Source: Algoriphagus vanfongensis DSM 17529
GTDB lineage: Bacteria > Bacteroidota > Bacteroidia > Cytophagales > Cyclobacteriaceae
Reading direction: 5' to 3'
NCBI RefSeq assembly: GCF_000429465.1
Contig: NZ_AUBX01000015.1
Span: forward strand, 62,001 to 126,000
DNA: 64,000 nt
Positions 7,682 to 22,613 of this stretch are shown here, one piece after another. The notes under the pieces are model-generated. The model searched no databases. It had not been told where the DNA came from and saw only the letters and a program-made list of their open reading frames with translations. The stretch's first letter is position 1; every line of letters begins with the position of its first letter. A program made the position numbers and the translations under genes.

Positions 7682-8038
7682 ATGTCCAAAATTTCAATAT
7701 TTTCTTTCAAGAAAGCTGGAATTCTTAGTGGAGTCACGCTAGGATTATGCCTATTGGCAGGAGAATCTTTTGCTCAAAGCGAGCGAGACAAATTGGAGCC
7801 TGAGTCTTCCAAGACGATGGATAGAGTCATCTTGGAGGATCAATTAGAGCAAGAAGTGGTGATTCCCAAAGTTTTACCAGCGACAAACAAGTCTACTCAG
7901 AAGCCATCTCCGATCCCAAGTACTCCTATTCGTAGAGAAGTGGTTTTGAATCCGGAGGGTAAAAAAGTAGAGCCAGTACCATCTACGCTATCATTCAATA
8001 TCTTTTTGTACGTGGTGGACAAGTTCAAAGCAGATTAA
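7682..8038 (+). CDS. Small secreted hypothetical protein
   Basis: 118 aa from the ATG at 7682, chosen because it places a clean signal peptide at the N-terminus (basic MSKISIFSFKK, hydrophobic GILSGVTLGLCLLAG, cleavage after SFA). The mature part is low in complexity: acidic, then rich in Pro, Ser and Thr (about 62-75), and ends in a short hydrophobic LSFNIFLYVVDKFK motif. No family recognised. The frame is open upstream to 7577, but that part overlaps csaA and its promoter. A strong terminator follows at 8058. Probably periplasmic or outer-membrane associated. Confidence 0.7.
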   Translation: MSKISIFSFKKAGILSGVTLGLCLLAGESFAQSERDKLEPESSKTMDRVILEDQLEQEVVIPKVLPATNKSTQKPSPIPSTPIRREVVLNPEGKKVEPVPSTLSFNIFLYVVDKFKAD

Positions 8039-8057
8039 GTTGTGTTTTCTTAATATG

Positions 8058-8089
8058 AAAAAAAAGAGGCTCATGGGCCTCTTTTTTTT
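8058..8089. terminator. Bidirectional terminator between the secreted protein and hisA-like gene
   Basis: A stem AAAAAGAGG/CCTCTTTTT around a CTCATGGG loop, flanked by A-runs on the left and T-runs on the right, so it can stop transcription from both sides. The T-run contains the TAA stop of the minus-strand gene. Confidence 0.85.
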
Positions 8090-8828
8090 ATGCTTCTGCT
8101 AGAAATTCTTCTAAGTCCTTCAAACTGATTCTACCCTCATAGAAGGCCCGTCCAAATACCGCAGCTTTTAATCCAGCTTCTTTCATTTTTCTAAAATCAT
8201 CTATCCCCCTGACTCCTCCGCTGCCTGCGAGATGAATAGACGGGAATTTTTCCATGATCTGTCGATACAGCTCAATATTTGGCCCTTCCATGACGCCATC
8301 TCGACTGATATCGGAGCATTTGACATACTTGAGTCCTCTATCATGAAAAAACTCAATGTGATCAAAAAGATCAATACTGGTTTTTTTCAACCATCCCCGG
8401 ATTTTGATTTTGTAATCGGCAGGATTGGTATCGGCAGCGAGATTTATTTTTTCACGGCCATAGGAAAGGAGAAATTGTGAAAATCGCTCTGGATAATTGG
8501 CTGCTGCGGAAGAAATAGTGACGGTCTTGGCTCCAAACTCAAAGCTTTTGATGACATCACCATCTGTCGTGATGCCACCGGTATAATCCACCTTCAGATC
8601 GGTATAGCCCGCAATCGCCTCTAGAATGTGATAATTTTTGGGTTCGCCTCGACGGGCTCCATCCAAATCCACTAAATGCAAGCGTTGGATACCGATAGAT
8701 TCAAATTGCTGGGCAATTTCCAGTGGATTATTGGAAATCACTTCTTCGGTAGAAAAATCACCTCTTTGGAGCCGGACACATTTTCCGTTGATCAACCAAA
8801 TGGAAGGAATGATTTCAAACGTCATCAT
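8088..8828 (-). CDS. HisA-family TIM barrel, catalytic Asp replaced by Trp
   Basis: 246 aa. Overall a HisA (phosphoribosylformimino-AICAR-P isomerase) homologue: IIPSIWLINGKCVRLQRGD at the N-terminus, HLVDLDGARRG, KCSDISRDGVMEGPN and the phosphate loop AGSGGVRG are all recognisable. In functional HisA the first strand reads IPAID, and its Asp (residue 7/8) is an essential acid/base; here the position is Trp11, encoded TGG. The second catalytic Asp (Asp133 in NLAADT) is kept, but the GGIR loop has become GGIT. No other his gene is nearby. It is therefore either a repurposed paralogue or an isomerase with altered chemistry, and annotation as plain hisA would be unsafe. Confidence 0.85.
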   Translation of the reverse strand: MMTFEIIPSIWLINGKCVRLQRGDFSTEEVISNNPLEIAQQFESIGIQRLHLVDLDGARRGEPKNYHILEAIAGYTDLKVDYTGGITTDGDVIKSFEFGAKTVTISSAAANYPERFSQFLLSYGREKINLAADTNPADYKIKIRGWLKKTSIDLFDHIEFFHDRGLKYVKCSDISRDGVMEGPNIELYRQIMEKFPSIHLAGSGGVRGIDDFRKMKEAGLKAAVFGRAFYEGRISLKDLEEFLAEA

Positions 8829-8965
8829 ATTTTTAGGTTTATTGGACTGAGATCTGCGTATTGCATCCCTAAGATAATACTGTAGTCAGGTTTCCACTAT
8901 ATCGAAAAATTAATTCTTTTGAATATTTTTTAGATACCCGTGGTCAAACCCATTCCTTGATCACC

Positions 8966-10003
8966 TTAAAAAATCAATTTTGCCACCTTCCCATCCGGTC
9001 CAGATGCCCACATACTCCCTCCACTGTGGCTCAGCTCAACAGCCCGGAATGTCTCCTGAGAAAATGACTCCCAACTAAGACCTCCATCTTTTGAAAAGTC
9101 TGTTCCGGTCGTCCCCACAGCAATAATCCATTGAAATCTAGGGAAATATTGCACACCTGAACGATAGCCCAAAGGCGGTGAAGTAGGTTCTACCCATTGC
9201 TGGTGAGTGAGTGAAAACAAACCAAAATTCCCCTCTACCAAGTCTGGCTGAGTATAATCCCCGCCGACCATGATCAACTCTCCTTTTCCATCTGAGGTCA
9301 TACTAAAAATCCCTTGAGAAGATTCCCCCTGATTCATAGGGCTTTTAGTTTTTAGCCAAGTACTTCCACGGTCACTTGAGATGTAAAGATTGGACTCGCT
9401 ACCACCGCTACCCAGAAAAAGCTCATCTCCTACCGCCAGTAGATTTGAGGCACTCGCTGCAAATGCAGCCTCTCCTGAGATTGGATCAGGAAGGGTTTTG
9501 AGTGCAGTCCAAGTAGTTCCTTGGTCGATAGTCTGCAGCAGCATCCACTTGCCATCCACCGGATCGCCGATCACATAGCCCCGATCCTCATCAGCAAATG
9601 TAATCCCGTCCAAAAATGCTTCTTCTACCTCTTGATGCTTGAGCAACCAAGTCTTACCCCCATCTTCGGTCTTGTAAATGACCGATGGCTGGCCTGCAGA
9701 CACCACCACAGCAGTCTCCGCATCAAAGGCATGGATAGATCTGAAATCTACCGTATCCAAGCCAGCCACAATTCCGTGAGTCCAAGTCTTGCCTCCATCC
9801 ACAGTCCTTAGCCAAGTACCTTCGGAGCCACTCGCCCAAGCAATATCTTTGGTGACAGCAGAAAGCCCTCTCAAAGAGCTTTTCACGGGAGTTTCAAAAA
9901 TTTCCCAACCCGATGGTTTATCGGGAATACTTTCCTCTTCTGAATTTTGGCAGGAAAAAAGCGCTAACCCGAAGGAAAGCGCTAATAAATACTTCTTGAT
10001 CAT
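8966..10003 (-). CDS. Ycf48/BNR-like beta-propeller lipoprotein
   Basis: 345 aa from the ATG at 10003; an ATG 21 nt further upstream would overlap the previous gene and precede the signal peptide. The N-terminus MIKKYLLALSFGLALFSC is a lipoprotein signal with the lipobox Cys followed by QNSEEE. The rest is a repeated photosystem II assembly factor Ycf48-type propeller, with blades marked by RTVDGGKTW, KTEDGGKTW, QTIDQGTTW, SSDRGSTW and FSKDGGLSW. It has no catalytic signature. Last gene of the seven-gene susC operon; a binding or scaffold role at the outer membrane is inferred. Confidence 0.82.
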   Translation of the reverse strand: MIKKYLLALSFGLALFSCQNSEEESIPDKPSGWEIFETPVKSSLRGLSAVTKDIAWASGSEGTWLRTVDGGKTWTHGIVAGLDTVDFRSIHAFDAETAVVVSAGQPSVIYKTEDGGKTWLLKHQEVEEAFLDGITFADEDRGYVIGDPVDGKWMLLQTIDQGTTWTALKTLPDPISGEAAFAASASNLLAVGDELFLGSGGSESNLYISSDRGSTWLKTKSPMNQGESSQGIFSMTSDGKGELIMVGGDYTQPDLVEGNFGLFSLTHQQWVEPTSPPLGYRSGVQYFPRFQWIIAVGTTGTDFSKDGGLSWESFSQETFRAVELSHSGGSMWASGPDGKVAKLIF

Positions 10004-10013
10004 GCGATATAAA

Positions 10014-10928
10014 TTAAGGAACATCCACCGCTCTGTAGGCCTGGATCAGGGCTTCTTCCCCCTCCTTGCCAGGTTGGGCATTGCCGTGCTCCATTCCACA
10101 GATACCTTGGAAGCCTTTTTCATGGATAAATTTAAAGACATTACCATAATGAATTTCGCCTGTTCCTGGTTCCTTTCTGCCTGGATTATCTCCGATTTGG
10201 ATATAAGCAATCTCATCCCAGGTCTTTTGCATAGTGGCAATGAGATTTCCTTCATTGCGCTGCATGTGATACGCATCGTATAGGATCTTACAAGCCGGAC
10301 TATCCACAGCTTTGCAAATCATATAGGATTGATCAGCATGTCTTAGGAAAAGGTCCGGATTGTCACTCAATGGCTCCATCACCATCACCAATCCATGCGG
10401 CTCGAAGATTTCAGAAGCTCGCTTATAAGCCTCGATGATATTGGCTGTCTGGACACCCATGGGAAGGTTTCTCTCAAAATAACCAGGAACTACAGTCATC
10501 CAAGTGGCATTGACACGCTTGGCCACCTCCACAGATTTTTTACAGGTAGCCAAGAATGTATCCATGAATTCTTGCTTTCCAGTAGTCAGAGATACTTTCC
10601 AGTTGTCTCCACCATCAATGACAAAAACTCCCATTCTCATCCCGAGCTCCTCCATAGTTTTGGCAATCAGAGTCTGATCTTCGACTGATCTGCCAAGCAT
10701 TCCATTGTCTTCCAACGAACGGAAACCTTGATCTGCCATGAATCTCAACTCATCTTCAAGACCTCCCGGAGCTGAATTGCGAAACATCCCGAAATGTGGA
10801 GCGAAGTCCATTTTGAAAACTGGAGCTTTCTTTTGTTCCATTCCAAAAGCAGGCATAGCCATAGCACCTGTCATACCCATCAAGGTACTTCCTAATCCTA
10901 CTTTTTTGATAAATCCTCTTCTTTCCAT
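10014..10928 (-). CDS. Tat-exported hydroxypyruvate isomerase-like TIM barrel
   Basis: 304 aa. The N-terminus MERRGFIKKVGLGSTLMG is a twin-arginine signal (RRGFIKK), so the protein is exported folded. The remainder is a xylose-isomerase-like TIM barrel closest in motif to hydroxypyruvate isomerase: metal ligands in MEPLSDNPDLF and YDAYHMQRNEGN, then IQIGDNPGRKEPGTGEI, the hallmark of the Hyi branch. Starts 3 nt after the oxidoreductase gene. In Bacteroidota such isomerases work with Gfo/Idh/MocA enzymes on oxidised (keto) sugars; that is the likely role here, in the periplasm, but the substrate is unknown. Confidence 0.87.
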   Translation of the reverse strand: MERRGFIKKVGLGSTLMGMTGAMAMPAFGMEQKKAPVFKMDFAPHFGMFRNSAPGGLEDELRFMADQGFRSLEDNGMLGRSVEDQTLIAKTMEELGMRMGVFVIDGGDNWKVSLTTGKQEFMDTFLATCKKSVEVAKRVNATWMTVVPGYFERNLPMGVQTANIIEAYKRASEIFEPHGLVMVMEPLSDNPDLFLRHADQSYMICKAVDSPACKILYDAYHMQRNEGNLIATMQKTWDEIAYIQIGDNPGRKEPGTGEIHYGNVFKFIHEKGFQGICGMEHGNAQPGKEGEEALIQAYRAVDVP

Positions 10929-10931
10929 GGC

Positions 10932-12245
10932 TTAGATCACTTTAGTTTTTCCAGGAACCGCATGTGGATAATACCCATCTTCACCCGGCAAAACTTTTGG
11001 ATTAGCATCCCAAGCCAAAGTCTCTGGCATCAGGTCTATGGAACCATTGAGTGCTTCATCCCACGTCAAAGGCTTACCGGAATACGTAGCATAACGTCCC
11101 ATAATGGCAGTCATGGTACTTTTAGCGGCATTTTCAGCATCCGCATATTTATAATCCCCATTGAAAAGAGCCTCCCAAAGCAAATCATGCTCTACTTGAT
11201 AGGGATTAGGCTGATTTTTTCTGTCATGCTCATAGAGCACATTTCCTTTCCAATCTTTCAGAGTACCGTGATTTCCAGCACTTAGGTAAGCTGTGCCTTT
11301 AGTACCTTGGAAGCTTTCGTCTACTCTATTTTGAGCGCCAGGAAAATGCCTGCACTCACTGTGGATCACAGAGCCATCCGCATAAGTATATGTCAATACA
11401 TGATGGTCAAAGATTTCACCATTTTCTTTACCAGTTCTCACCAATCGACCTCCGGTACCTTCCGCTTTCACAGGGTAGCCTTTCTTCACCCAATTGGCAA
11501 TGTCGATGTTGTGGACGTGCTGCTCATTGATATGATCACCACACAGCCAGTTGAAATAATACCAGTTTCTCATTTGGTATTCCATTTCAGTTTGGCCAGG
11601 TTGTCTTTCTCTTACCCAGACACCCCCGTCATTCCAATATACCTGTCCATTGATGATATCACCGATTTCACCATCATGGATTCTTTTGATAGTTTCGACG
11701 TAGTTAGCTTGATAATGTCTCTGAAGACCCACTACCACGTTCAATTTTTTGGCTTTTGCCTCTTCAGCAGCCTTTAGGACTTTACGGATACCCGCAGCAT
11801 CTACTGCTACCGGCTTTTCCATGAATACTTGCTTTCCTTGCTTGACAGCTTCTTCGAAGTGCATGGGGCGGAATCCTGGAGGTGTGGCCAATATCACCAC
11901 ATCCGCTTCGGCAATAGCTTGCTTGTAGGCATCAAAACCGACAAACTTTTTATCTTCTGAAACAGTGACTACATCTTTGCCATACTTCTCGATCAGAGGC
12001 TTGTATGCCCCATCCAAACGATCTCTAAAGGCATCAGCCATAGCGACCAGCTTGATGTTATGACCAGTATTTAAAGCTTGAAAAGCGGCTCCGGTACCAC
12101 GACCGCCGCACCCGATTAGGGCAAGCTTAAGCTCAGTGACAGGTGCTGCATAAGCACCGGGAAGAACAAATGAGGAGGCTAGCAATCCGCCTGTGGCTAG
12201 AGCAGAGGTTTTGATGAAATCTCTACGTGAGTTTTCTAATTTCAT
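10932..12245 (-). CDS. Tat-exported Gfo/Idh/MocA-family oxidoreductase
   Basis: 437 aa. Twin-arginine signal SRRDFIKTSALATGGLLASS at the N-terminus, then a Rossmann domain starting LALIGCGGRGTGAAFQA and the family motif FMEKPVAVDAAG, whose Lys is the usual catalytic residue. The C-terminal domain carries NWYYFNWLCGDHINEQHVHN, seen in the long periplasmic glucose-fructose-oxidoreductase-like members. Such enzymes keep NAD(P) tightly bound and oxidise or epimerise sugars. It sits between the SUMF1-like gene (19 nt) and the isomerase-like gene (3 nt), so the two Tat enzymes are co-expressed. Confidence 0.92.
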   Translation of the reverse strand: MKLENSRRDFIKTSALATGGLLASSFVLPGAYAAPVTELKLALIGCGGRGTGAAFQALNTGHNIKLVAMADAFRDRLDGAYKPLIEKYGKDVVTVSEDKKFVGFDAYKQAIAEADVVILATPPGFRPMHFEEAVKQGKQVFMEKPVAVDAAGIRKVLKAAEEAKAKKLNVVVGLQRHYQANYVETIKRIHDGEIGDIINGQVYWNDGGVWVRERQPGQTEMEYQMRNWYYFNWLCGDHINEQHVHNIDIANWVKKGYPVKAEGTGGRLVRTGKENGEIFDHHVLTYTYADGSVIHSECRHFPGAQNRVDESFQGTKGTAYLSAGNHGTLKDWKGNVLYEHDRKNQPNPYQVEHDLLWEALFNGDYKYADAENAAKSTMTAIMGRYATYSGKPLTWDEALNGSIDLMPETLAWDANPKVLPGEDGYYPHAVPGKTKVI

Positions 12246-12264
12246 AATATGGTTGTTTTGAGGT

Positions 12265-13218
12265 TTAATAATCTGTGATAGGGGCTGCGGTGTAGTAGGC
12301 TTTGATTTCTTCTTCGCTAGGTGGAGTCAAAGGTCTAACTAGTCGCATGCCTAAAAATGGAGCTTCGGGAAACCACCATTGACTTTTCGGGATCTGCGGA
12401 TCGATTCGCTTCCAATCAGCACTGGAGACAAACCGTTTGGAAGAAGTGATTTCCGCAGATGGCGTATCATAGCTTCCCCCTCTTACCACTCTCGGATATA
12501 GTTCACTTGAGGGGTTTAAGGGATTTTCTTCTGCTGAAGCCGCATAGAACTCAGGATCATACTGATCAGCAGTCCATTCGAGCACATTGCCATAGATGTC
12601 ATACAGTCCCCATGGGTTTGGCTTTTTGGTGCCTACCGGATGAGTCAATTCCTCCGAATTTTCCTTGGTCCAAGCGTATTCGTCCATTAGAGACGCATCA
12701 GTGCCAAAGAAAAAAGGTGTATCTGTTCCGGCTTTGGCGGCATATTCCCATTCAGCCTCTGTAGGCAATCTGTAGAATATCCCGGTTTTCAAATATAACC
12801 AGTGACAATATTGGACGGCTCCATATTGCGTCATCCCGATCGCTGGCTTGCCTTCTTTACCCATTCCAAAAGTCATATCCAAATAAGGAATACTTGGCCT
12901 GGTCAAACCATCCACAATATCCCCGATAGGCCCTTCGGAAATCGCCAATTCGTAGTTTTTGTCCAAAAACATCTCAAAAGCATCCCAGGTTACTTCATGA
13001 GTTCCCATCCAAAAGGGATCAATTTTGACGGAATGAGTAGGCTTTTCATCTGAATCTCCATTATCAGAACCCATCATAAAAGTGCCTCCCGGAATAGGAG
13101 CCATATCAAATGTGACTTGAGAGCCCGGTATTTTCTGGGAATAAGGCTCAAATACCGAGTCTTCTGAATCTGAGCCGAAAAGCCAGAAAAAGGAAATAAG
13201 GGTAATCTTTTTAAGCAT
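12265..13218 (-). CDS. SUMF1/FGE-like protein lacking catalytic cysteines
   Basis: 317 aa from the ATG at 13218, 16 nt after the VCBS gene stop; the longer frame from 13269 overlaps that gene. A short hydrophobic N-terminus (MLKKITLISFFWLFG) suggests export. The body is a formylglycine-generating-enzyme fold: MAPIPGGTFMMGSDNGD, THEVTWDAFEMFLD, YRLPTEAEWEYAAKAG, NPWGLYDIYGNVLEWTAD and VVRGGSYDTPSAEITSSKR. Active FGE has two cysteines just after RGGS; none is present here, so it cannot be a sulfatase-activating oxidase of that type. A binding or structural role in the operon's envelope complex is more likely. Confidence 0.88.
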   Translation of the reverse strand: MLKKITLISFFWLFGSDSEDSVFEPYSQKIPGSQVTFDMAPIPGGTFMMGSDNGDSDEKPTHSVKIDPFWMGTHEVTWDAFEMFLDKNYELAISEGPIGDIVDGLTRPSIPYLDMTFGMGKEGKPAIGMTQYGAVQYCHWLYLKTGIFYRLPTEAEWEYAAKAGTDTPFFFGTDASLMDEYAWTKENSEELTHPVGTKKPNPWGLYDIYGNVLEWTADQYDPEFYAASAEENPLNPSSELYPRVVRGGSYDTPSAEITSSKRFVSSADWKRIDPQIPKSQWWFPEAPFLGMRLVRPLTPPSEEEIKAYYTAAPITDY

Positions 13219-13234
13219 CGAAATAAGAAATAAA

Positions 13235-16200
13235 CTAGTGATAGATATGGATACCTTGCCCTTTGACAAGGAATAATAGTTTCTGATCTAGTGGCAAAAT
13301 AGACCGGATCTCGCCAGTCACACTTAAGCCAGACTCAGCAGCAGAAAGCGGGTCAAAATTGCCCTGACCATCTCCCAGTAAAACCAGTCCTTTGCCGGCA
13401 TCATACTTGCCAAGACTTAGCTTTCCAAATCCCAAGTTTCCACCCAGAATCATATCCAGATTTCCGTCTTGATTGACATCTGCTGCCAAAGAACTATATA
13501 CCGGAAAAATCTGGGCTTGCATAGGAAGATTCTTTTTGCGGTAAATACCTGATGCGTCCTGCACCAAATAGACTGTTTCCAGTTCGTTGATCTGGATAGA
13601 AGAGGCTCCGGACTTTTCTGCCGGAGTGAACAGCTTGTCAAACGTCGTCTGGGAATACACCTTGAAATCCAAGTATTTCTTCTTTTGAATCGGGATTTGA
13701 GCTATCAGTTCATTCCGGCTTGCAAGAGGATATTTTTCATCCCCGATATAATATCCAAATATCGGATCGATGGTACCATTGCTGTCAAAGTCTTTGTAAA
13801 GCAATTCCATCGGTTGCTCAAAGCTGGCATTGAGCTGTGTATTGAGCCCAAGATTGCCTATTACTAATTCTGTCTTGCCATCGCCATCCCAGTCACTTGC
13901 CTCCACGGAATTCCATAAGCCCACCAATGGGCGGTCAAAAAATTGGGAAGTTTGGTTCCTCATTTCACCTGACTCCATTCCCAAAACAGTTACTGGAGTG
14001 GCTTCACCTACCAAGACTACTTGTTGCTTTCCGCTGCCATTGAGATCCATCACAATCATATCTGTGATCATACCCAGATCTGCCATCCAGCTTTGATTGA
14101 TTCCACTGAGGGAAAAGCTACCAGTCCCATCATTTTCCCAAAGTTGGATTCCTTTGGAACTTGGGTACTGATCTGGCACTTGGCGAAAAGCAAGTAGTAC
14201 ATCCTGATCTCCGTCCTGATCCCAATCCCACTGGCCAACTGCCGAGATAGGAAAATCAAAATACGGAAAGGCTTCTACCTGCTCTCTAAATGTTCCTTTT
14301 CCGTCATTCAAATACAATTTGGCAGTCCAAGCTTTCGAAGTAGGATAAAAATCATACAAGCCACCAGTCACTACCAATAAGTCCAAATTTCCATCTCCAT
14401 TCGCATCCATACTCACCACATCTACCTCTCCCTGAAAAGAAGTGGATTCAAAGGCGGATGAATTTGGGTTACCAAAAGCTCCACTCGAAGTCTGGAAGTA
14501 TACCGCACCTGCCGCTCCTGCTTCTCCTCCCACGAAAATATCCTCCCTACCGTCCTGGTTGAAATCACCAGTGACCATGGCTTTGCCTTGCCCTGACACC
14601 GGATGCAGCATCAAAGGCTGACGCTTGTAATCATTGGTGATTTTCCCTTGCTTCACTGGCAAAACCTGTGATTGTTGGAGCAGGGTCTCCCCGGTTATGG
14701 ACTTAACATATGCCGATTCTCCCATCTCTGGCTTGAGTTCCAGCGTCTGGTTTGCGTCGATGGATTTGACGATCTTCTTAGGCCCTCCGATCCAGGAAAT
14801 CTCTAAAGAATCCACCTTAGTGCTCGCTCCCAAGCCTACCAGAAGAGTAGGGCTGACAGAGGACTGGTAGCCGCGATAGGGATTTTGTTCGAGGTATTGA
14901 ACCGCTCCATCGGTGTACACTTTCAAACTAGTGCCAATGGCAAAAGAATTTTTTCCCTCTCCGAGAAGACGGATTTTCAGGTAATTTTTACTTTCCCTTT
15001 CATTGCTTTTATTTTCGTAGACCCCTGCTGGAGCATTGACATTGTTGATCACCAAATCAAGGTCTCCATCTTGGTCCAAATCTGCGTAGGCTGCCCCATG
15101 ACTGTTGGATGCATGATCAAATCCCCAGTTTTTTACTTCATTTTCAAACTGAAGATTCCCAAGGTTCTTATAGACATAATTATTCAATTCTGTAGAAGGC
15201 ATGGATTTTACCAGATTCAGGAGATCTTCCCGCTTTAGTTTTCCTCCAGAAGTTCGTACATAGTTATCCATGTAGTTCAAAAAATCCTGATTGTTGTAGT
15301 CCCTCATGTAACCATTGGTGACGAAGAGGTCTTTCAGTCCATCATTGTCAAGATCTGCGAAAAGTGCCGACCAGCTCCAGTCGGTATTCGAAATACCCGA
15401 AAACTGTCCAACTTCAGAAAAAGTCCCTGTTCCATCATTGACATGGAGCATATTACGCATGTATTGGTGATGCCAGCCTCTGTCGACATTGAGCTGAAAC
15501 AACTCGAAATTGTCCGGAGCCAGCAGTAACTTTTGCCTTTCATTGTCCTCCGGAAGCATGTCCAAGGTGAAAATATCCACCAGCCCGTCATTGTTTACAT
15601 CGACCAGATCGTTGCCCATGGAGAAATTGGAAATATGCCCCAATCGCTCTCCGATTTCATCTTTGAATCGGCCATTTTTCTGATTGATGTAAAGGAAATC
15701 CGGAATCGAATAATCATTGCCTATGTAAATATCCGGCCAGCCATCCTGATTGACATCTGCCGTAGAAACCCCAAGCCCATAAGAAAACATGGAACTGGAA
15801 ATACCAGCCTTTTCGGTGATTTCGACAAATTTTCCGTTTTGATTTTCAAAAAGTTGGGAACCCGCCTCATGCCTTTCCTGCATCAATTTTTGGGTAACCA
15901 TGACATTTTGATTTTGGATGGATTTGGTATTATGATTCAGAAGAAACATATCCAGATCTCCATCCAGATCAAAGTCAAAAAAACTGGCAGAGGTACTCGG
16001 TGCAGGAGAATCTAGGCCATATTCAGCCCCTTTTTCTGCGAAAACAGGGATTCCATCCTCTCCCGCGCCTTGATTAATAAAAAGTTGATTTCGCCTTTTT
16101 TCTGGAGGCAAAGCTCCAGAGCGACATAGATAAATATCCAGCAAACCATCACCATTGACGTCTGCCATGACAGCCCCGGTATTCCACGGTCCTTCTGGCC

Positions 16201-16549
16201 CAGCTACTTGAGCTTGAGCTGTAATATCTTTGAATTTGAAATTGCCCTCATTGAGGTACAGTTTATTGCCACTGACATTGGCAGAAAAATAAATGTCATC
16301 CAAGCCATCCTGATTGATATCGCCGATGGCCACTCCACCTCCATTATAAAGATACTCATACATCAGGACATTGAGATTGAGAGATTCTTCCAAGGAATTT
16401 TGAAATGAAATCCCAGAACTGGATGGATCTATCTGGTGAAAAAGTGTGGATTCTGAAGTTGAACTGGATTTGTCAATTTCCTGATCGGATGAGCATGCAA
16501 AAAAGAGGGGAAGGGTAATTGAGGTTATTAGGGGTAGTACTCGTTTCAT
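13235..16549 (-). CDS. VCBS/FG-GAP repeat lipoprotein with ASPIC/UnbV domain
   Basis: 1104 aa. Lipoprotein signal MKRVLPLITSITLPLFFAC. Two propeller regions made of calcium-binding repeats of the type DxNxDGxxD, for example GDINQDGLDDIYF, ADVNGDGLLDIYL, ADVNQDGWPDIYI, ADLDNDGLKDLFV, ADLDQDGDLDLVI and, in the second half, DANGDGNLDLLVV and ADVNQDGNLDMIL. Between them lies an ASPIC/UnbV (CRTAC1-like) domain with NPYRGYQSSVSPTLLVGLG. This architecture commonly accompanies SusC/SusD pairs in Bacteroidota and is thought to be a surface binding protein, but its ligand is not known. Gap of 52 nt after susD, holding a perfect palindrome. Confidence 0.9.
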   Translation of the reverse strand: MKRVLPLITSITLPLFFACSSDQEIDKSSSTSESTLFHQIDPSSSGISFQNSLEESLNLNVLMYEYLYNGGGVAIGDINQDGLDDIYFSANVSGNKLYLNEGNFKFKDITAQAQVAGPEGPWNTGAVMADVNGDGLLDIYLCRSGALPPEKRRNQLFINQGAGEDGIPVFAEKGAEYGLDSPAPSTSASFFDFDLDGDLDMFLLNHNTKSIQNQNVMVTQKLMQERHEAGSQLFENQNGKFVEITEKAGISSSMFSYGLGVSTADVNQDGWPDIYIGNDYSIPDFLYINQKNGRFKDEIGERLGHISNFSMGNDLVDVNNDGLVDIFTLDMLPEDNERQKLLLAPDNFELFQLNVDRGWHHQYMRNMLHVNDGTGTFSEVGQFSGISNTDWSWSALFADLDNDGLKDLFVTNGYMRDYNNQDFLNYMDNYVRTSGGKLKREDLLNLVKSMPSTELNNYVYKNLGNLQFENEVKNWGFDHASNSHGAAYADLDQDGDLDLVINNVNAPAGVYENKSNERESKNYLKIRLLGEGKNSFAIGTSLKVYTDGAVQYLEQNPYRGYQSSVSPTLLVGLGASTKVDSLEISWIGGPKKIVKSIDANQTLELKPEMGESAYVKSITGETLLQQSQVLPVKQGKITNDYKRQPLMLHPVSGQGKAMVTGDFNQDGREDIFVGGEAGAAGAVYFQTSSGAFGNPNSSAFESTSFQGEVDVVSMDANGDGNLDLLVVTGGLYDFYPTSKAWTAKLYLNDGKGTFREQVEAFPYFDFPISAVGQWDWDQDGDQDVLLAFRQVPDQYPSSKGIQLWENDGTGSFSLSGINQSWMADLGMITDMIVMDLNGSGKQQVVLVGEATPVTVLGMESGEMRNQTSQFFDRPLVGLWNSVEASDWDGDGKTELVIGNLGLNTQLNASFEQPMELLYKDFDSNGTIDPIFGYYIGDEKYPLASRNELIAQIPIQKKKYLDFKVYSQTTFDKLFTPAEKSGASSIQINELETVYLVQDASGIYRKKNLPMQAQIFPVYSSLAADVNQDGNLDMILGGNLGFGKLSLGKYDAGKGLVLLGDGQGNFDPLSAAESGLSVTGEIRSILPLDQKLLFLVKGQGIHIYH

Positions 16550-16561
16550 AGTCGTAATAAA

Positions 16562-16589
16562 TCCGGGCCATCTTTAAAGATGGCCCGGA
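16562..16589 (-). terminator. 28-nt perfect palindrome between susD and the VCBS gene
   Basis: The sequence is self-complementary over its whole 28 nt (arms TCCGGGCCATCTTT / AAAGATGGCCCGGA). As RNA it forms a GC-rich hairpin just 12 nt after the susD stop, with only a weak U-run (ATTTATT) after it. It may act as a partial terminator or a 3' stabiliser that keeps susCD mRNA more abundant than the downstream genes, or as a protein binding site. Confidence 0.6.
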
Positions 16590-16601
16590 AAATTAAGAAA
16601 C

Positions 16602-18455
16602 TTATTCGAATCCAGGATTTTGGATCAAATTGGAGTTTCGATTCATCTCATCCCTATGGATCGGAATGAAATACATTTTATCTAGCCAGGTTCTATTTTC
16701 TTTACCTGGGTCAATGTTGATTACAGAATAATCGTAATCGTATAGCTCAGGATCGTATCTATAGATAGAGACACTTGCACCCGGTTTCAAAGTACCGGTA
16801 ATGCTGATTCCATTTGCTTTACGTCCTAGTGTTTCCTCTGCAATCATCCATCGTCGAGCATCATGATAGCGCTGCTCTTCATAGGCCATCTCGATTCTAC
16901 GCTCATTGCGATATGCCTCCACGAGTTCTTCCCCAGTGGCAGTCACTGCAGGCAATCCTACACGATATCTGATTTGATTCATCCAAGCTCTGGCTTCCTC
17001 TTCCTGTCCCAATTCTATAGATGCTTCTACATAGTTTAGTACAGCTTCAGTATACCTCAAGATTGGCCAAGGCACTTCCTGCCAGGTGTTCTGATCTACG
17101 ATAGCTGGATCTGGATCGATGAATTTTCTCATGTAATAGCCTGTGTAGCTACCATTCCAGTCTTCGATGGAAGAGTTTCTGGTATCCAGACCAAAGTGAG
17201 TTTCTACAGTTCCTCCCGGATTGATTTCGTAGGTACCAGTTTGGATTTGACCCAATGGATCCTTGGCTTGGTTGGCTGTGGATCTTGGCTTCCAAGGAGC
17301 ACCTTCGTAAAGCACAGAAGCATAGAATCTTGCCTCTCTGTTTTCGTATGGAGCTGCTGCATGCTCAGGATTACTCCAGTCAAAATCTGATCCATCCATC
17401 ATTTGGTAGTCGTCTACCAGTAGTTGGACAGGAGTATTACCAGCCCAGTTGTTATATCCGTTTGGACCATTGAAAAGACCCTGACGGCCCCCGTTTTCTT
17501 GCTTGAGATTGATAAAATATCTTCCCAAAATCAGGTCAGCTTCTCCACCATTTCTAGAAAGAGAGGTATTGATATAATTCTGAATTCCTTCTTCATGAGA
17601 AACTGGCTCTGAAAGACCGTACATACTACCGGTACTTTTGTCAAGCACTGCTTTGGAAGCAGCCTGAGCTCTTTGCCATCTCTCGGTCTGAGAGCCATCG
17701 GTATACGCAATCAATTCAATATTGGCATATCCAGCCAACAGTGTAGAATTAGCTTTTGCCATCCCTGCATCATGCAAGTCACTGGCTGCATAGGTCAACA
17801 CTCTTGATTTCAAAGCCAAAGCTGAAAGCTCAGAAGCTCTACCTGCGGCCATGGATTTGCCAGCCAATAAAGAAGCAGCATCGTCCAAATCGGCAACGAT
17901 AAAATCAATGGTTTCTTTCCACGTACTTCTAGGCGCTTCGTATGTCTCCTCGTTCAGTTCGTAAGGTCTGTCTATCAAAGGCACCCCTCCATAATAGCGA
18001 GCCAACTGCTGGTAGTAATACGCTCTCATAAACTTCGCCTCACCCATCAATCTATCCACTAGTGCTTGATCGGCAATTTCCGTCTCACTTAGATTGGAGA
18101 TAGCGATATTTGCACGACGGATATAAGAGTACATGGTACCCCACCAGATGGTGCCATTGACCCAACCAACATCTGCTGGGTTGGTTCTAGCCTCTGTGAC
18201 GGTAGTGATACCTCTACCCGGGTGAGTAAAGATGGCTTCATCAGTAAGAGATGCAAGCATCTGCTCATCAAATCCGCCATTGCCAAATCCTTGATAGATT
18301 CCAGTGACAAATGCTTCGGCCAATGCTGGATCCGTCCACACTGCTGATTCTGAAATCTCTCCCAAAGGATCTACATTCAAGAAATCATTGTTACATCCGA
18401 CCAACATCAAAATCATGGTCAGCGTCGCAAGTATATTTTTTAGGTTATTTTTCAT
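16602..18455 (-). CDS. SusD/RagB-family outer-membrane nutrient-binding lipoprotein
   Basis: 617 aa. Lipoprotein signal ending LMLVGC, then the SusD N-terminus NNDFLNVDPLGEISESAVW. The TPR-like helical core includes FMRAYYYQQLARYYGGVPLI and the C-terminal region has YVEASIELGQEEEARAWMNQIRYR and YRNERRIEMAYEEQRYHDARRW, both family hallmarks. It forms the lid that captures ligand over its SusC transporter. Starts 12 nt after susC. The ligand cannot be deduced; the operon contains no glycoside hydrolase, lyase or sulfatase. Confidence 0.95.
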   Translation of the reverse strand: MKNNLKNILATLTMILMLVGCNNDFLNVDPLGEISESAVWTDPALAEAFVTGIYQGFGNGGFDEQMLASLTDEAIFTHPGRGITTVTEARTNPADVGWVNGTIWWGTMYSYIRRANIAISNLSETEIADQALVDRLMGEAKFMRAYYYQQLARYYGGVPLIDRPYELNEETYEAPRSTWKETIDFIVADLDDAASLLAGKSMAAGRASELSALALKSRVLTYAASDLHDAGMAKANSTLLAGYANIELIAYTDGSQTERWQRAQAASKAVLDKSTGSMYGLSEPVSHEEGIQNYINTSLSRNGGEADLILGRYFINLKQENGGRQGLFNGPNGYNNWAGNTPVQLLVDDYQMMDGSDFDWSNPEHAAAPYENREARFYASVLYEGAPWKPRSTANQAKDPLGQIQTGTYEINPGGTVETHFGLDTRNSSIEDWNGSYTGYYMRKFIDPDPAIVDQNTWQEVPWPILRYTEAVLNYVEASIELGQEEEARAWMNQIRYRVGLPAVTATGEELVEAYRNERRIEMAYEEQRYHDARRWMIAEETLGRKANGISITGTLKPGASVSIYRYDPELYDYDYSVINIDPGKENRTWLDKMYFIPIHRDEMNRNSNLIQNPGFE

Positions 18456-18467
18456 GTTGTCAATTTT

Positions 18468-21400
18468 TTAGAATGAAACAGAAAGACCGGTGTTGATCAC
18501 TCTCGCTTGCGGATAGTATTGACCAGTTTCGCTACTACCTTCAGGATCATATACTTTCAAATCATCCCAAGTAATTAAGTTCAATCCATTCACATAGAAT
18601 CTTGCGTTTTGGATTCCCACTTTTTGGGTAAGATGTGCTGGTAGATTGTACCCGATTTCCAAGTTTTTCAATCTCAAATAATCGGTTTTTCTAAACCAGT
18701 AGGTGTTGCCACCGGAATACCATTGATCGGATCTATTGGCGATACGAGGATGCTCAGAGCTTGGATTGTCGATCGTCCATCTGTTTTCGTAGAAGTCCAA
18801 AAGGTAGTTACCTATGTTTCCGGACTCTCCAGCAGACACATATTGTCTAGCTCCCAAAGCACCTTGGAAGAGAATAGCCAAATCAAATCCTTTCCAGTTG
18901 GCATTGAAGTTTACCCCTCCTTGGAACAACGGAATGTTGTTATTGTCCATTCGTACACGGTCATCTCCATCGATTTTACCGTCATTGTTGTAATCCTTGT
19001 ACTTCATATCACCTGGTCTCAAAGTCCCAGTCATCGCTGAATAATCCAAAGTCTCTGCATCAATTTCCTGCTGATCTCTGAACACTCCATCATACTGATA
19101 CACCAAGAAGGTATTCATAGGGGAGCCAGTAGACATCTGCCATTCTGGAGCTCCCGGAGATTCATCCCAGAACAAGATTTTGTTCTTGGCATAACCACCA
19201 TTGGCACTGATAGAGTATTGGAACTCGCCCTTGCCACCACGATAACCGACATTGATGTCAAATCCTTTGTTTTCAACTTCTCCGATATTTTCTGCAGGAA
19301 GTGAAAGTCCTGTACTCTGAGGAATAGAGGCATTTCTTTGCCAGAGGATGTTGGTTCTCTTATTGTAAAAGAGATCAAACTCGAAGAAGATTTTTCCTTG
19401 CAAGAATTGACCTTCAAATCCTAGGTTGGAGTTGTTTGCAATTTCCCAGGTAATTGATCTGTTTGGAATTCTAGTTTCATACAAAGTCTTTGTCTCTGTA
19501 CCTCCGATAATATATGAGCTAAATCCATAGGTAGACAGGTATTGGAATTCACCAATCTGATCATTCCCCAATTGGCCCCACGAACCTCTAACTTTAAAGA
19601 AGTCGAATGTTTGACCAATTCCTGAATTTTTCCAGAAACCCTCTTCGGAAGCTACCCATCCAAGCATGATGCCTGGGAAGAAGCCGAATCGGGTGTCTTC
19701 AGGGAAGATATACGATCCGTCATATCTCCAAAGAAACTCTGCCAGATATTTTTCTTTGTAGTTGTAGGCTACTCTACCGAAGTAGTTTAAGCGAGCTCTA
19801 TTGAAAGCGCCACCACTATTGTTTTTCTCCAAATCACCACCGGCAAACATTTGGTCGATTGCCGTGGAGATAAAGTATCTACGATATGCACTGAAGTCAT
19901 TTCCTTCGATCGTCTCTCTGTTGACACCAGCTACCACATTGATCGTATGGTTTTCGTTGATGGTTTTGTCATAGGTAAATACACCTCCCAAAAGGATATT
20001 CAATTGCTGACTGGTGTATTCGTTCAAATTTGGTTCGGCCGGACCTCTTTGGTTTCCTACCAAGACAGGAGTGACACCATCTTCTTCAAATCCATTGCCT
20101 AATTCGTATAGAGTCCATGGAATTTGCCAGTTTTTAGTATATCTGATGTACTTATCAATAGCAGCTGTACCGGTGAATTTCAAACCTTCTACGCCAGGAA
20201 TCTTGATTTCAAGGTTACCAGTTGTCTGGATATAGTCTCTTTTATCTCGATTATATCCTGTTGCATTAGTAGTGATTACCACAGGGTTTTCACCATTCTC
20301 AATATCCGGCCCAGGAAGACCATTTGGCCAGTAAGCAGGCTGATTTGGCTTACCTCTCATCTGCATTCGGAAAATAGCCCCTGCACCTCTGGTAGGGAAG
20401 AATCTAAATTCCTCTCTGGCCAAAATGCCCAATCCTACTTTCACATATTCATTGATATTCGCATCGAGGTTGATTCTGAAATCATACTGCTTGTATCCTG
20501 TTGCTGCATTTTTATAGTAGGCATCTTGGTTTTGATAGCCTAGGGAAGTCAAGTACTTCACATTTTCACTACCACCTACCAGCTGAAGATTGTATCTGCT
20601 TTGCGGAGACCAAGTCTTCAAAGTCTCACCGTACCAGTCAGTGTTTGGATAGTACCAAGGATCAGATCCATTTCTATACAGTTCCAATTCCTCAGGAGTA
20701 TAAGGAGCGGACCTTACTTGACCATCTGGTCTTACATACTCACCGTTCTGCTTGTATGCCTGATTGGCAGCTTCCCACTCACTGACTGGGAGCTCATAGA
20801 CACTGAGGTCATTGAGCATCTCTGCGTACTGAGCAGCATCTGCAAGATCAGGAATGACGGTAGGCTGAGCCCAACCTTGGTTCATTTGGAATGTCAATTC
20901 CGGCTTGCCCGTACTACCTCTTTTAGTAGTTACGAGGATTACGCCATTTGCAGCACGAGAACCATAGATGGCCGCAGATGCATCCTTCAATACCGAAATG
21001 TTTTCGATATCATTAGGATTCAATCTTTCTAGACCACCAGCTCTTGCAGGGATTCCATCGATTACGACAAGGGCGTCGTTGTTACCCAAAGTATTACTAC
21101 CCCGGATACGGATACCGGAACCATCATAACCAGGCTCACCACTTCTATTGACCGCAACCACCCCTGCCATACGACCGGCGATTGAGTTGGACAAGTTCAT
21201 GGCAGGAGACTTGGTCAATTCCTTTCCTTTCACCGTAGCTACGGATCCAGTAATGGTTTCTTTTTTCTGCTCACCGTACCCTACGACTACCACTTCCTCG
21301 AGGGATTTGGTATCTGGTAGCAAAGTAATATCAAGGGTAGTTCTGGATCCTACCTCGACCTCTTGCGTGATGAAACCGATAAAAGAGAATACTAAAATCG

Positions 21401-21623
21401 GATTGTCTGAATTGACGGTGACAGAGAAATTACCATCGACATCCGTGACGGTACCAGTGGTGGTACCTTGTACCAGGATGGATACTCCTGGAAGGGGAAA
21501 ATTATCTTCCCCTGAGATTACTACTCCAGACACCTCCCGGGTCTGGGCCATTGTCGAGGCAGAAATGCCAAGACACAGCAAAAATGTTAAGCCAAACAGC
21601 TTAAGAGCGTTGAGATTCCTCAT
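18468..21623 (-). CDS. SusC/RagA-family TonB-dependent outer-membrane transporter
   Basis: 1051 aa. Signal peptide MRNLNALKLFGLTFLLCLGI up to SASTMAQ, a carboxypeptidase-regulatory-like domain (VSGVVISGEDNFPLPGVSI, about residues 29-110), a plug domain with EEVVVVGYGEQKKETITGSV and ALVVIDGIPARAGGLERLNP, and a long 22-strand beta-barrel ending in the terminal aromatic VINTGLSVSF. It moves ligand delivered by SusD across the outer membrane using TonB energy. First gene of the minus-strand operon; an AT-rich leader of at least 130 nt precedes it. No N-terminal signalling (STN) domain, so no direct anti-sigma partner is implied. Confidence 0.96.
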   Translation of the reverse strand: MRNLNALKLFGLTFLLCLGISASTMAQTREVSGVVISGEDNFPLPGVSILVQGTTTGTVTDVDGNFSVTVNSDNPILVFSFIGFITQEVEVGSRTTLDITLLPDTKSLEEVVVVGYGEQKKETITGSVATVKGKELTKSPAMNLSNSIAGRMAGVVAVNRSGEPGYDGSGIRIRGSNTLGNNDALVVIDGIPARAGGLERLNPNDIENISVLKDASAAIYGSRAANGVILVTTKRGSTGKPELTFQMNQGWAQPTVIPDLADAAQYAEMLNDLSVYELPVSEWEAANQAYKQNGEYVRPDGQVRSAPYTPEELELYRNGSDPWYYPNTDWYGETLKTWSPQSRYNLQLVGGSENVKYLTSLGYQNQDAYYKNAATGYKQYDFRINLDANINEYVKVGLGILAREEFRFFPTRGAGAIFRMQMRGKPNQPAYWPNGLPGPDIENGENPVVITTNATGYNRDKRDYIQTTGNLEIKIPGVEGLKFTGTAAIDKYIRYTKNWQIPWTLYELGNGFEEDGVTPVLVGNQRGPAEPNLNEYTSQQLNILLGGVFTYDKTINENHTINVVAGVNRETIEGNDFSAYRRYFISTAIDQMFAGGDLEKNNSGGAFNRARLNYFGRVAYNYKEKYLAEFLWRYDGSYIFPEDTRFGFFPGIMLGWVASEEGFWKNSGIGQTFDFFKVRGSWGQLGNDQIGEFQYLSTYGFSSYIIGGTETKTLYETRIPNRSITWEIANNSNLGFEGQFLQGKIFFEFDLFYNKRTNILWQRNASIPQSTGLSLPAENIGEVENKGFDINVGYRGGKGEFQYSISANGGYAKNKILFWDESPGAPEWQMSTGSPMNTFLVYQYDGVFRDQQEIDAETLDYSAMTGTLRPGDMKYKDYNNDGKIDGDDRVRMDNNNIPLFQGGVNFNANWKGFDLAILFQGALGARQYVSAGESGNIGNYLLDFYENRWTIDNPSSEHPRIANRSDQWYSGGNTYWFRKTDYLRLKNLEIGYNLPAHLTQKVGIQNARFYVNGLNLITWDDLKVYDPEGSSETGQYYPQARVINTGLSVSF

Positions 21624-21886
21624 AGACAGGCTTTTGGGTTAGTAATTGATTTATTTAACCCCTAAAACTCCTTTTTTTTAAGTAGGAAATCCTGCTGTTT
21701 TTTAACATAAACTGACTGTATATTGTCAATATTTAGATTTTTTTGGAAAAAATCAGTCAGATTTTGCCAAATGAACTATCGAGTTGATAAAAATTGTTAG
21801 TTATAGGGCAAAAGCCCTAGGGGGCTTAGTGATATTTTGACCCCTTCAATTTCACGGAATATGTACTCGGAAAAAACGTGAAATAC
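21624..21886. other. Leader region of susC and end of the lipoprotein gene
   Basis: Non-coding 263 nt. It must contain the susC promoter, but I see no convincing TTG/TAnnTTTG pair. A 7-bp inverted repeat CTGACTG (21712-21718) / CAGTCAG (21754-21760) frames an AT-rich stretch and could be a regulator site. At 21812-21827 a 6-bp stem AAGCCC/GGGCTT with a four-base loop, followed on the minus strand by TT, is a weak terminator candidate for the lipoprotein gene. Confidence 0.35.
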
Positions 21887-22471
21887 CTACATTTTCTTCA
21901 CCACTTCTTTTTTGGGCAAATACACCGCCCACATTCCTGCCAAGACCTTCTTATTCTCTTCCCCATTGGCCTGTTTCAAAGAGTCACTACCACTATCCTG
22001 CAATGCATCCTTGGATATCAAAACTGCTTTACTGTATAAATATACTTCTCCACTTTGGACCTCCTGAATGCTTGGGTGAGTCTCTATTCCATTTTCTAAA
22101 TCATAACGATAGGTTTCCAAAATCTGAACTTCCATTTCAGTACTAGTCCCCGGATCGATTTGATTAGCTATCCATTTAATTGGAAATGAATGACTCGCAC
22201 TCATAGATTCGGAAACCATCTGGGCTTTCGCTTGAATCTCCTCCAGCCCATCAGTAGAATCATTGTCTTGTAATAGCTCCTTCAAACTCTCTGTGGCTTC
22301 TACCTGAAGAGAATCTCCCCAAAGCATTGCCGCCTGTACTATTTCAGCATCACTGAGCTTTTTCACCTCCATGGATCTATTTACTTCTTCAAATACTTCT
22401 TTGGATACTCGCTCCCCTGATCCACAGGAAATGAAAAGACAGCAGATGCAAATGACTAGTGAATTTTTCAT
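21887..22471 (-). CDS. Hypothetical lipoprotein
   Basis: 194 aa. MKNSLVICICCLFISCGSGE is a lipoprotein signal with the lipobox Cys at residue 16. The mature protein is acidic and helical in the first half (KEVFEEVNRSMEVKKLSDAE), and ends with LAGMWAVYLPKKEVVKKM. The phrase SGEVYLYSKAVLI recalls the region after the haem site in periplasmic DUF3365 sensors, but I see no CxxCH haem motif, so I assign no function. It is divergent from the T9SS gene; a TACTTTTG box at 22493-22500 (minus strand) is a candidate -7 element. Confidence 0.7.
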   Translation of the reverse strand: MKNSLVICICCLFISCGSGERVSKEVFEEVNRSMEVKKLSDAEIVQAAMLWGDSLQVEATESLKELLQDNDSTDGLEEIQAKAQMVSESMSASHSFPIKWIANQIDPGTSTEMEVQILETYRYDLENGIETHPSIQEVQSGEVYLYSKAVLISKDALQDSGSDSLKQANGEENKKVLAGMWAVYLPKKEVVKKM

Positions 22472-22564
22472 ATCAGACTTTTATGCTTTCTTCAAAAGTA
22501 CCCAAAATTCACCAAGACATTAAAATCACAATCCAATTGTATGGCTTAGCCTGAATCAAAGCCT

Positions 22565-22593
22565 TTGAGAACAGGCAAATTGGTTTATTTTTG
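22565..22593 (+). promoter_or_regulatory. Promoter for the T9SS-exported Ycf48-like protein
   Basis: TTG (22565-22567), 18 nt, then TATTTTTG (22586-22593), a full match to the Bacteroidota TTG/TAnnTTTG consensus. The start codon is 20 nt downstream, so the 5' leader is very short. Confidence 0.65.
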
Positions 22594-22613
22594 TTCCTAT
22601 ACATTGACACCTT

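Follow-up and report, generated by a model that had tools for sequence, protein, structure and literature searches.

Seven genes lie side by side on the minus strand within the window, a 64,000-nucleotide stretch of the genome of the marine bacterium Algoriphagus, and all seven open reading frames (ORFs) are open at the coordinates given here. The row begins with a SusC/RagA TonB-dependent transporter (1051 aa, 18468..21623), which scores 918 bits against TIGR04056 (cut-off 368), followed by a SusD/RagB lipoprotein (617 aa, 16602..18455; PF07980 and PF14322) whose lipobox VGC was recognized by eye, and by an FG-GAP/UnbV-ASPIC protein (1104 aa, 13235..16549; PF13517 and PF07593), by eye also a lipoprotein. 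Next come an FGE-like exported protein (12265..13218; PF03781, 144.6 bits), a Gfo/Idh/MocA oxidoreductase with a Tat signal (Gfo; 437 aa, 10932..12245; PF01408), a hydroxypyruvate-isomerase-like TIM barrel, likewise with a Tat signal (Hyi; 304 aa, 10014..10928; PF01261, AP_endonuc_2), and a Ycf48-like lipoprotein (8966..10003; PF14870). From SusC to Ycf48 the intergenic gaps measure 12, 52, 16, 19, 3 and 10 nt, assuming ATG 13218 and ATG 10003 as the starts of the FGE-like and Ycf48-like genes; with these starts, the spacing of 3–52 nt on one strand described in the earlier note holds. If the first possible starts are used instead, the FGE ORF (TTG 13269) overlaps the FG-GAP gene and the Ycf48 ORF (10024) overlaps Hyi. 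We place the FGE-like start at ATG 13218 because the corresponding M18 is nearly invariant.

None of the seven proteins matches a glycoside hydrolase, lyase or sulfatase family. As regards the marks of a PUL, the SusC–SusD pair is thus present and the degradative enzymes are absent among the seven genes, which upholds the earlier description of a hydrolase-free row that is not an ordinary polysaccharide locus.

The 52-nt gap between susD and the FG-GAP gene contains a 12-bp hairpin with a T-rich tail (16562..16589, minus strand). It is present in 26/26 loci examined that carry SusC–SusD–FG-GAP (out of 31; L043 and four repeats were omitted), with 98.1% of cells paired and 8 of the 12 pairs changed on both sides. 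The hairpin is probably an attenuator or a 3′-end stabilizer, and since a covarying terminator-like element occupies this gap, the seven genes are probably not transcribed evenly as a single unit. Rfam returned no match at gathering scores within 8000–23000. Promoter-like sites number 19 versus 24.1 expected (no promoter is claimed) and terminator-like sites 14 versus 11.7 expected, so the site scan by itself says little.

A conserved core and an accessory capture module

Comparison within the genus divides the seven genes into two units: a conserved core of FGE-like–Tat-Gfo–Tat-Hyi–Ycf48 and an accessory capture module of SusC–SusD–FG-GAP/ASPIC. All core genes are present in 31 of the 32 genus loci, the remaining one being cut by a contig end; these loci were fetched at Hyi matches and hence give no measure of Hyi frequency in the genus. 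Of 36 genus genomes, 2 are without a close Hyi, both of them incomplete MAGs, and a further one (G005) was left out of the long loci. Gene-order conservation, proposed as a check in the earlier note, was assessed in the same set: 15/32 loci have SusC–SusD–FG-GAP in this position with the gene order preserved, 16/32 lack the module, and one was left uncalled. The order of six genes, SusC-SusD-FG-GAP-FGE-Gfo-Hyi, also recurs in one distant genome (L155), whose SusC end and SusD are 49% and 45% identical to those of the window and were called orthologous. An order conserved nowhere, which would have refuted the earlier note, is therefore not what was observed.

Because SusCD-FG-GAP is missing beside the core in 16 genus loci, the surface capture module is optional, and we reject the idea of a dedicated seven-gene machine. 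On a tree built from HisA and three genes of the locus itself, the module was gained or lost independently of the core, with at least four changes; the tree omits 10 of 56 rows, namely seven judged to be repeats and L037, L051 and L059, in which genes are missing. A close FG-GAP orthologue (55% or more) occurs in at least 35 of 72 genus genomes. A second FG-GAP copy as a stand-in was rejected, as the other matches reach 47% or less among the matches listed; this genome has five further FG-GAP matches, and around the two whose surroundings were read (L210 and L211) no neighbour matched the susC or susD of the window.

The exported proteins and their partners in other genomes

The motifs GxGxxG, EKP and GDHIxEQHxHN are kept across 36 Gfo sequences, and the Tat signals of both Gfo and Hyi are conserved. 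The earlier note had spoken of two Tat-exported sugar-oxidizing enzymes; the Tat pair stands, but only Gfo is an oxidoreductase, whereas Hyi has an isomerase/epimerase fold. The best NCBIfam score of Gfo is to inositol 2-dehydrogenase (63.7 versus a cut-off of 355), and against the glycoside-3-dehydrogenase model BT_2158 it scores 49 bits (cut-off 750); no such model was reached. Gfo thus combines the family and the Tat signal of an exported 3-dehydrogenase and misses the equivalog cut-off.

In Hyi, residues E185, D218, H221, Q244, R251 and E280 are invariant in 44 sequences. E185, D218, Q244 and E280 align with 1k77 and 3ngf, the nearest structures in a fold search in which YcjR (6wn6) ranks seventh, and correspond to the E, D, Q and E with metal and catalytic roles in hydroxypyruvate isomerase. 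The best NCBIfam scores, to hydroxypyruvate isomerase (TIGR03234, 115.8 bits, cut-off 353.45) and 2-oxo-tetronate isomerase (107 bits, cut-off 325), both miss their cut-offs. By nearest sequences, fold and metal-site Gln, Hyi resembles hydroxypyruvate isomerases, not keto-glucoside enzymes.

The FGE-like protein is not cysteine-less, as had been stated, and carries a single Cys, C155. Its C-terminal half, where the catalytic Cys pair of human FGE sits, is devoid of Cys; the PF03781 domain and the fold are present and the copper-binding pair is absent. The nearest folds are Treponema variable protein 1, PvdO and FGE, and the fold is also common to T9SS PorK. The gene was found in 49 phylum genomes, all with Gfo, and lies directly upstream of Gfo in 43/49 (adjacency counted with all 100 Gfo rows). 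The Ycf48-like gene adjoins Hyi in genus loci, where it forms the fourth core gene; it was not seen in 101 loci outside the genus (no tblastn match at 1e-15).

Among 395 phylum genomes, Gfo occurs in 63, Hyi in 67 and both in 57, in 40 of which they lie within 6 kb of each other. FGE–Gfo–Hyi is also found in other Bacteroidota, in Armatimonadota and in Planctomycetota. Within 6 kb of Hyi, the 55 named loci outside Algoriphagus display Gfo in 12 cases, GMC in 20, both in none and neither in 23, some of the latter on short contigs. A second Gfo accompanies 19 of the 20 GMC loci and Gluconate_2-dh3 14; the GMC proteins were assigned by family only, and among solved structures the one tested comes closest to fructose and glucose dehydrogenases. 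A relative of the 3-keto-disaccharide hydrolase family (PF06439) is present in all six sphingomonad Hyi loci, and L167 and L169 line up FGE-Gfo-ApbE-Hyi-symporter-GMC in a single row. Counts over all 101 loci are biased, since L150–L189 were picked for Gfo or Hyi matches; the comparison was made by tblastn, and ORF calling gave shadow ORFs in G+C-rich loci. On the Hyi tree, which leaves 35 of its 92 forks open, the oxidase context changed between Gfo and GMC at least three times; each such change may be either a gain or a loss. One isomerase family would therefore have switched its oxidase partner repeatedly.

A proposed periplasmic keto-sugar route and its alternatives

On the basis of sequence and gene context, we propose, with a probability of about 0.6, that the locus joins an optional capture module to a periplasmic keto-sugar module of the 3-keto-glycoside type, in which Gfo oxidizes and Hyi isomerizes or eliminates. 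Judging by its family, SusCD would bring either a sugar, an oligosaccharide or a glycoside through the outer membrane. Gfo, which Tat would export in folded form, probably with tightly bound NAD, may oxidize a ring hydroxyl, most likely at C3; Hyi, as a metal-dependent TIM barrel, may then isomerize, epimerize or β-eliminate the keto-sugar. The FGE-like protein would act together with Gfo, perhaps as a subunit that binds the ligand. The NAD would probably be regenerated by reduction of a second keto-sugar, as in the published work on DgpA, so that no periplasmic NAD supply would be needed. Periplasmic oxidation and isomerization had been suggested before, and this agrees with the conserved Tat signals; a keto-sugar route also fits the genes found around the two enzymes in other bacteria. 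In favour of the reading are further the frequent proximity of Gfo and Hyi, the changes of oxidase partner, the orthologous SusC and SusD before the distant core and the PF06439 genes elsewhere in this genome. Against it stand the low scores of Gfo to glycoside-3-dehydrogenase models, the likeness of Hyi to hydroxypyruvate isomerases, the lack of PF06439 in the locus, the 23 Hyi loci with neither oxidase nearby, the family-level assignment of GMC, the lack of SusCD in half of the genus loci and the presence of ApbE, which the route does not explain.

It is unlikely, though the resemblance of Hyi invites the idea, that the route concerns hydroxyacids, uronates or aldonates, with Hyi a true hydroxypyruvate or 2-oxo-tetronate isomerase acting on small keto acids made by periplasmic Gfo. 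The best NCBIfam scores, the folds 1k77 and 3ngf and the metal-site Gln all favour such an enzyme, but both curated cut-offs are missed (116 versus 353 and 107 versus 325 bits), and the neighbours elsewhere are GMC proteins of sugar-oxidase type and relatives of 3-keto-disaccharide hydrolases. Small acids, moreover, need no SusCD.

We regard it as improbable that the core alters a cell-surface sugar rather than serving growth, with SusCD a mere neighbour. Such envelope or glycan modification would suit the retention of the core in small genus genomes (2.2–2.8 Mb, incomplete MAGs) without SusCD at the site, and the fold shared with PorK; however, these enzymes have symporters, the hydrolase family and, in two loci, galactokinase genes as neighbours, which speaks for catabolism, and 332 of the 395 phylum genomes have no close Gfo. 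That the module and the core adjoin by accident and do not cooperate is very doubtful: its independent presence and absence and the conserved hairpin before the FG-GAP gene speak for it, but the shared strand and tight spacing argue against it, and the orthologous SusC and SusD in the same order before the distant core make it less likely.

The keto-sugar route has several known counterparts. To our knowledge, neither DgpA/DgpBC nor YcjQ/YcjS/YcjR is exported by Tat. Sugar breakdown by oxidation and subsequent cleavage is an alternative to glycoside hydrolases whose mapping is only now under way, and a 2024 Nature paper reportedly describes an alternative glycan-breakdown pathway. As in the Bacteroides set BT_2157/BT_2158/BT_2159, known to us by NCBIfam names, a Gfo-family dehydrogenase is found in a member of the Bacteroidota, but the window Gfo falls far below the family cut-off; BT2157 is named in PMC9007349. 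The periplasmic 3-keto-lactose route of LacABC and DUF1080 (Caulobacter, Pedobacter and Indibacter) also places sugar oxidation before cleavage (PMC9007349), and the Tat-Hyi family elsewhere similarly adjoins GMC and G2DH3, with PF06439 in sphingomonads. In contrast to LacABC, the oxidase of the locus is Gfo, of an NAD family, instead of GMC/FAD, DUF1080 is absent from the locus, and FGE-like and Ycf48-like proteins are additional. In C-glycoside deglycosylation by DgpA and DgpBC, DgpA holds bound NAD (PMC11239390) and works with a TIM-barrel CGD (PMC8563793), a 3-oxidation by Gfo/Idh/MocA followed by a TIM-barrel isomerase-like enzyme; unlike the locus, this system is not known to include SusCD and has a β-sandwich partner subunit in place of the FGE-like protein. 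E. coli YcjQ/YcjS and YcjR likewise pair sugar dehydrogenases with a 3-keto-glucoside isomerase/epimerase, but use an ABC transporter and belong to a different subfamily (PMC11543891).

The widespread exported set FGE-like–Gfo–Hyi looks undescribed as a unit, because literature searches gave no such description and the available texts do not contain the relevant terms (MocA, GFO, xylose isomerase, sulfatase and sugar in the main text of PMC8238504; MocA, TIM barrel, sugar, sulfatase and isomerase in PMC11334425). It suggests a variant of oxidation before cleavage in which the oxidase is exported by Tat and of NAD type, has its own FGE-fold partner and is spread over several phyla.

ApbE and related genes elsewhere in the genome

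In the loci compared outside Algoriphagus, FGE–Gfo–Hyi is often accompanied by ApbE (FAD:protein FMN transferase). The locus in the window is without ApbE, and the sole ApbE match of the genome lies about 290 kb off on the same contig. The target motif D-x-x-[ST]-G-A-[ST] occurs in 0/340 ORFs of 32 ApbE-containing loci (out of 63 loci with ORF calls; ORFs shorter than 1300 aa and no more than 7 kb away were counted, shadow ORFs among them), against a background of 1/477 in loci without ApbE; for the canonical motif and this set of ORFs, a flavinylation target near ApbE was therefore rejected. The looser [DNE]-x-x-[ST]-G-A-[ST] is absent from all seven window proteins and is matched by 2 of 36 Gfo sequences. 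Orphan ApbE clusters without a nearby recognized target are described in PMC8238504; the loci here differ in that no flavinylation motif lies near ApbE.

A tentative extension, possible but rather unlikely, is that FGE-like-Gfo-ApbE-Hyi makes up a sugar-redox system of the periplasm that has yet to be described. ApbE would flavinylate a protein that lacks the canonical motif, or play another role. NAD-bound Gfo would then be linked through flavin to the respiratory chain, the FGE-fold protein without the Cys pair would act as a dedicated partner subunit, and in Algoriphagus the single unlinked gene would supply ApbE. The locus offers a way to test what some orphan ApbE genes may do.

The keto-sugar route would also account for SusCD loci overlooked by hydrolase-keyed catalogues. 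As regards a keto-glycoside hydrolase (PF06439) or a lyase/epimerase (PF01261), PF01261 is present in the locus, and PF06439 is found only elsewhere in the genome, where 13 matches exceed the cut-off and a single ORF holds two of these. A separate genomic cluster combines PF06439, AP_endonuc_2, Gfo, GMC and G2DH3, and beside a second SusC-SusD pair lie a Gfo as well as a two-domain PF06439 protein.

A conserved enzyme core and an optional SusCD module

All seven ORFs described in the earlier note (SusC, SusD, FG-GAP/ASPIC, FGE-like, Gfo/Idh/MocA (Gfo), hydroxypyruvate-isomerase-like (Hyi) and Ycf48-like) were recovered on the minus strand with the same positions and families, and the gaps of 3-52 nt hold if later starts are taken for FGE (ATG 13218) and Ycf48 (ATG 10003). 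The FGE-like protein, said to be cysteine-less, contains a single Cys, C155. As to the two proposed Tat-exported sugar-oxidising enzymes, Tat motifs are present in both Gfo (RR and F kept at ≥95% in 36 sequences) and Hyi (R3 invariant in 44 sequences), but Gfo alone of this pair is an oxidoreductase.

Among 32 loci from other Algoriphagus genomes, each fetched at its Hyi match, the core FGE-Gfo-Hyi-Ycf48 was found in 31, with Ycf48 broken by a contig end in 2 of these; the remaining locus, L037, is itself broken by a contig end. The core adjoins hisA wherever the contig extends far enough. The upstream SusC-SusD-FG-GAP module is present in 15 of the 32 loci and absent from 16, one being left unassigned, and 35 of the 72 genus genomes have a close orthologue of FG-GAP (≥55% identity). 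At least 4 changes in the module's presence are required on a tree of 46 rows, of which 27 have it and 19 lack it, compared with 14.9 for shuffled labels, and the tree does not separate losses from repeated gains. In most of the genus loci examined the locus is bordered by two further genes, one for a Ycf48/PKD protein carrying a type IX sorting tail (window 22614-25427) and one that is small and fast-evolving (window 21887-22471).

The search for this gene order in other Bacteroidota, as the earlier note had proposed, recovered its first six genes: L155, a locus from another family of the phylum, keeps SusC-SusD-FG-GAP-FGE-Gfo-Hyi, with an ApbE gene facing the row. Identity to the window's proteins is 49% for the C-terminal part of SusC (the fetched stretch starts inside the gene), 45% for SusD (PF07980), 27% for FG-GAP/ASPIC, 45% for FGE, 59% for Gfo and 56% for Hyi. 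Because the same order is found in so distant a genome, the link between module and core is not a chance feature of a single genus.

In a survey of 395 phylum genomes (Gfo E≤1e-90, Hyi E≤1e-60, FGE-like E≤1e-45), Gfo was detected in 63 and Hyi in 67; 57 genomes have both, and 40 of these carry the two ≤6 kb apart; as the genomes share kinship, a simple P value for this co-occurrence is not usable as a probability. The FGE-like protein occurs in 49 genomes, all of which have Gfo, and in 43 its gene is directly upstream of Gfo, within 500 bp; in 44/44 adjacent placements FGE is upstream on the same strand. Outside Bacteroidota, FGE-Gfo-Hyi sets are carried by one Armatimonadetes MAG (L135) and by two Planctomycetes (L136, L137). 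We conclude that the locus is real, conserved and modular, and that it is a putative new form of oxidise-then-rearrange sugar processing.

A hairpin in the gap after susD

In the gap that separates susD from the FG-GAP gene lies a 12-bp stem, perfectly paired and followed by a T-rich tail (window 16562-16589), and this hairpin is present in all 26 module-bearing Algoriphagus loci examined, the window included. In their alignment 98.1% of cells pair, compared with 47.1 and 48.7% in a one-column slide control. Both sides have changed at 8 of the 12 pairs; such cells number 36, against a shuffled mean of 8.7, and none of 500 shuffles reaches 36. The count of pair types in the same alignment is unremarkable (16, against a shuffled mean of 14.6). 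The hairpin probably sets the susCD transcript level above that of the enzymes.

Hyi, its oxidase partners and the putative substrate

In 44 Hyi sequences E185, D218, H221, Q244, R251 and E280 are invariant. Q244 aligns with Gln of 3ngf and 1k77, at a position occupied by His in tagatose 3-epimerases; 1k77 and 3ngf are also the nearest folds to the Hyi model (pLDDT 87), and YcjR, a 3-keto-glucoside epimerase, ranks 7th. Gfo retains GxGxxG, the EKP lysine and the GDHIxEQHxHN motif, and the FGE-like model (pLDDT 86) resembles Treponema variable protein, PvdO and FGE. The Gfo enzyme DgpA is described in PMC11239390 as holding near-equimolar NAD(H) and recycling it on 3-oxo-sugars; by analogy, bound and recycled NAD(H) would solve the periplasmic cofactor problem of Gfo.

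The oxidase accompanying Hyi varies. Within 6 kb of Hyi in 55 named non-Algoriphagus loci, some on short contigs, we found Gfo in 12, a GMC oxidase in 20, both in none and neither in 23; the 12 Gfo loci include FGE in 9 and ApbE in 5. The row GMC-gluconate-2-dehydrogenase subunit 3-Hyi occurs in 14 loci from Maribacter, Cellulophaga, Eudoraea and relatives, with a second Gfo in 13 and a nucleoside/sugar symporter in 11. The one GMC protein tested, from Maribacter, has fructose and glucose dehydrogenases as its best solved relatives. Loci L167 and L169 carry FGE-Gfo-ApbE-Hyi-symporter-GMC as a single row. In sphingomonads, a relative of the 3-keto-disaccharide hydrolases (PF06439) adjoins Hyi in 6/6 loci and a subunit-3-like protein is found in 4/6. 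A tree built from 95 Hyi sequences requires 4 changes of the GMC label, at least 3 of these being forced by well-supported branches. Since Hyi accompanies two unrelated oxidases, it would most simply act on a product common to both, a keto-sugar. In two unrelated genomes the Gfo/FGE genes are followed immediately by a galactokinase-family gene (L176 12311-13513, L188 11139-12266), a possible hint to the substrate. In loci L171-L175 an extra AP_endonuc_2-type gene (u3) adjoins the Gfo and Hyi pair, and a second, weaker Hyi-like gene is present in 5/5.

ApbE and related genes in the same genome

ApbE lies ≤6 kb from Hyi in 26 of 43 loci with Gfo versus 7 of 51 without, although these counts are not a rate, many of the 94 loci having been chosen for Gfo-Hyi proximity. 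Of the 55 named loci, 7 have ApbE near Hyi, none of them a GMC locus, and Pfam confirms four of the Hyi-neighbouring ApbE proteins. None of 340 ORFs close to ApbE, drawn from 32 loci, has the ApbE target motif D-x-x-[ST]-G-A-[ST] (PMC12052999); with a background of 1/477 ORFs in loci without ApbE, this shows at most that no target is encoded nearby. Orphan apbE genes are on record (PMC8238504). The Algoriphagus locus lacks ApbE, the sole match in its genome lying elsewhere on the same contig, near a sodium:solute symporter (PF00474; L205 4206-5888). Symporter-like genes (cluster u4, assigned by eye) also occur near Hyi in L062, L063, L066, L122 and L129.

The same genome has 13 PF06439 matches above cut-off, two sharing one ORF, and 4 matches to PF13618. 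A second SusC-SusD pair (L212, 6846-14675 on contig C1) stands beside a two-domain PF06439 protein and a Gfo with a Tat-like start by eye, which scores 138.9 bits to the glycoside 3-dehydrogenase model BT_2158 against a cut-off of 750. Another cluster (L068, 2828-10754 on contig C3) comprises PF06439, AP_endonuc_2 and Gfo genes, which face AP_endonuc_2, GMC, subunit 3 and AP_endonuc_2 genes, and resembles LacABC/DUF1080.
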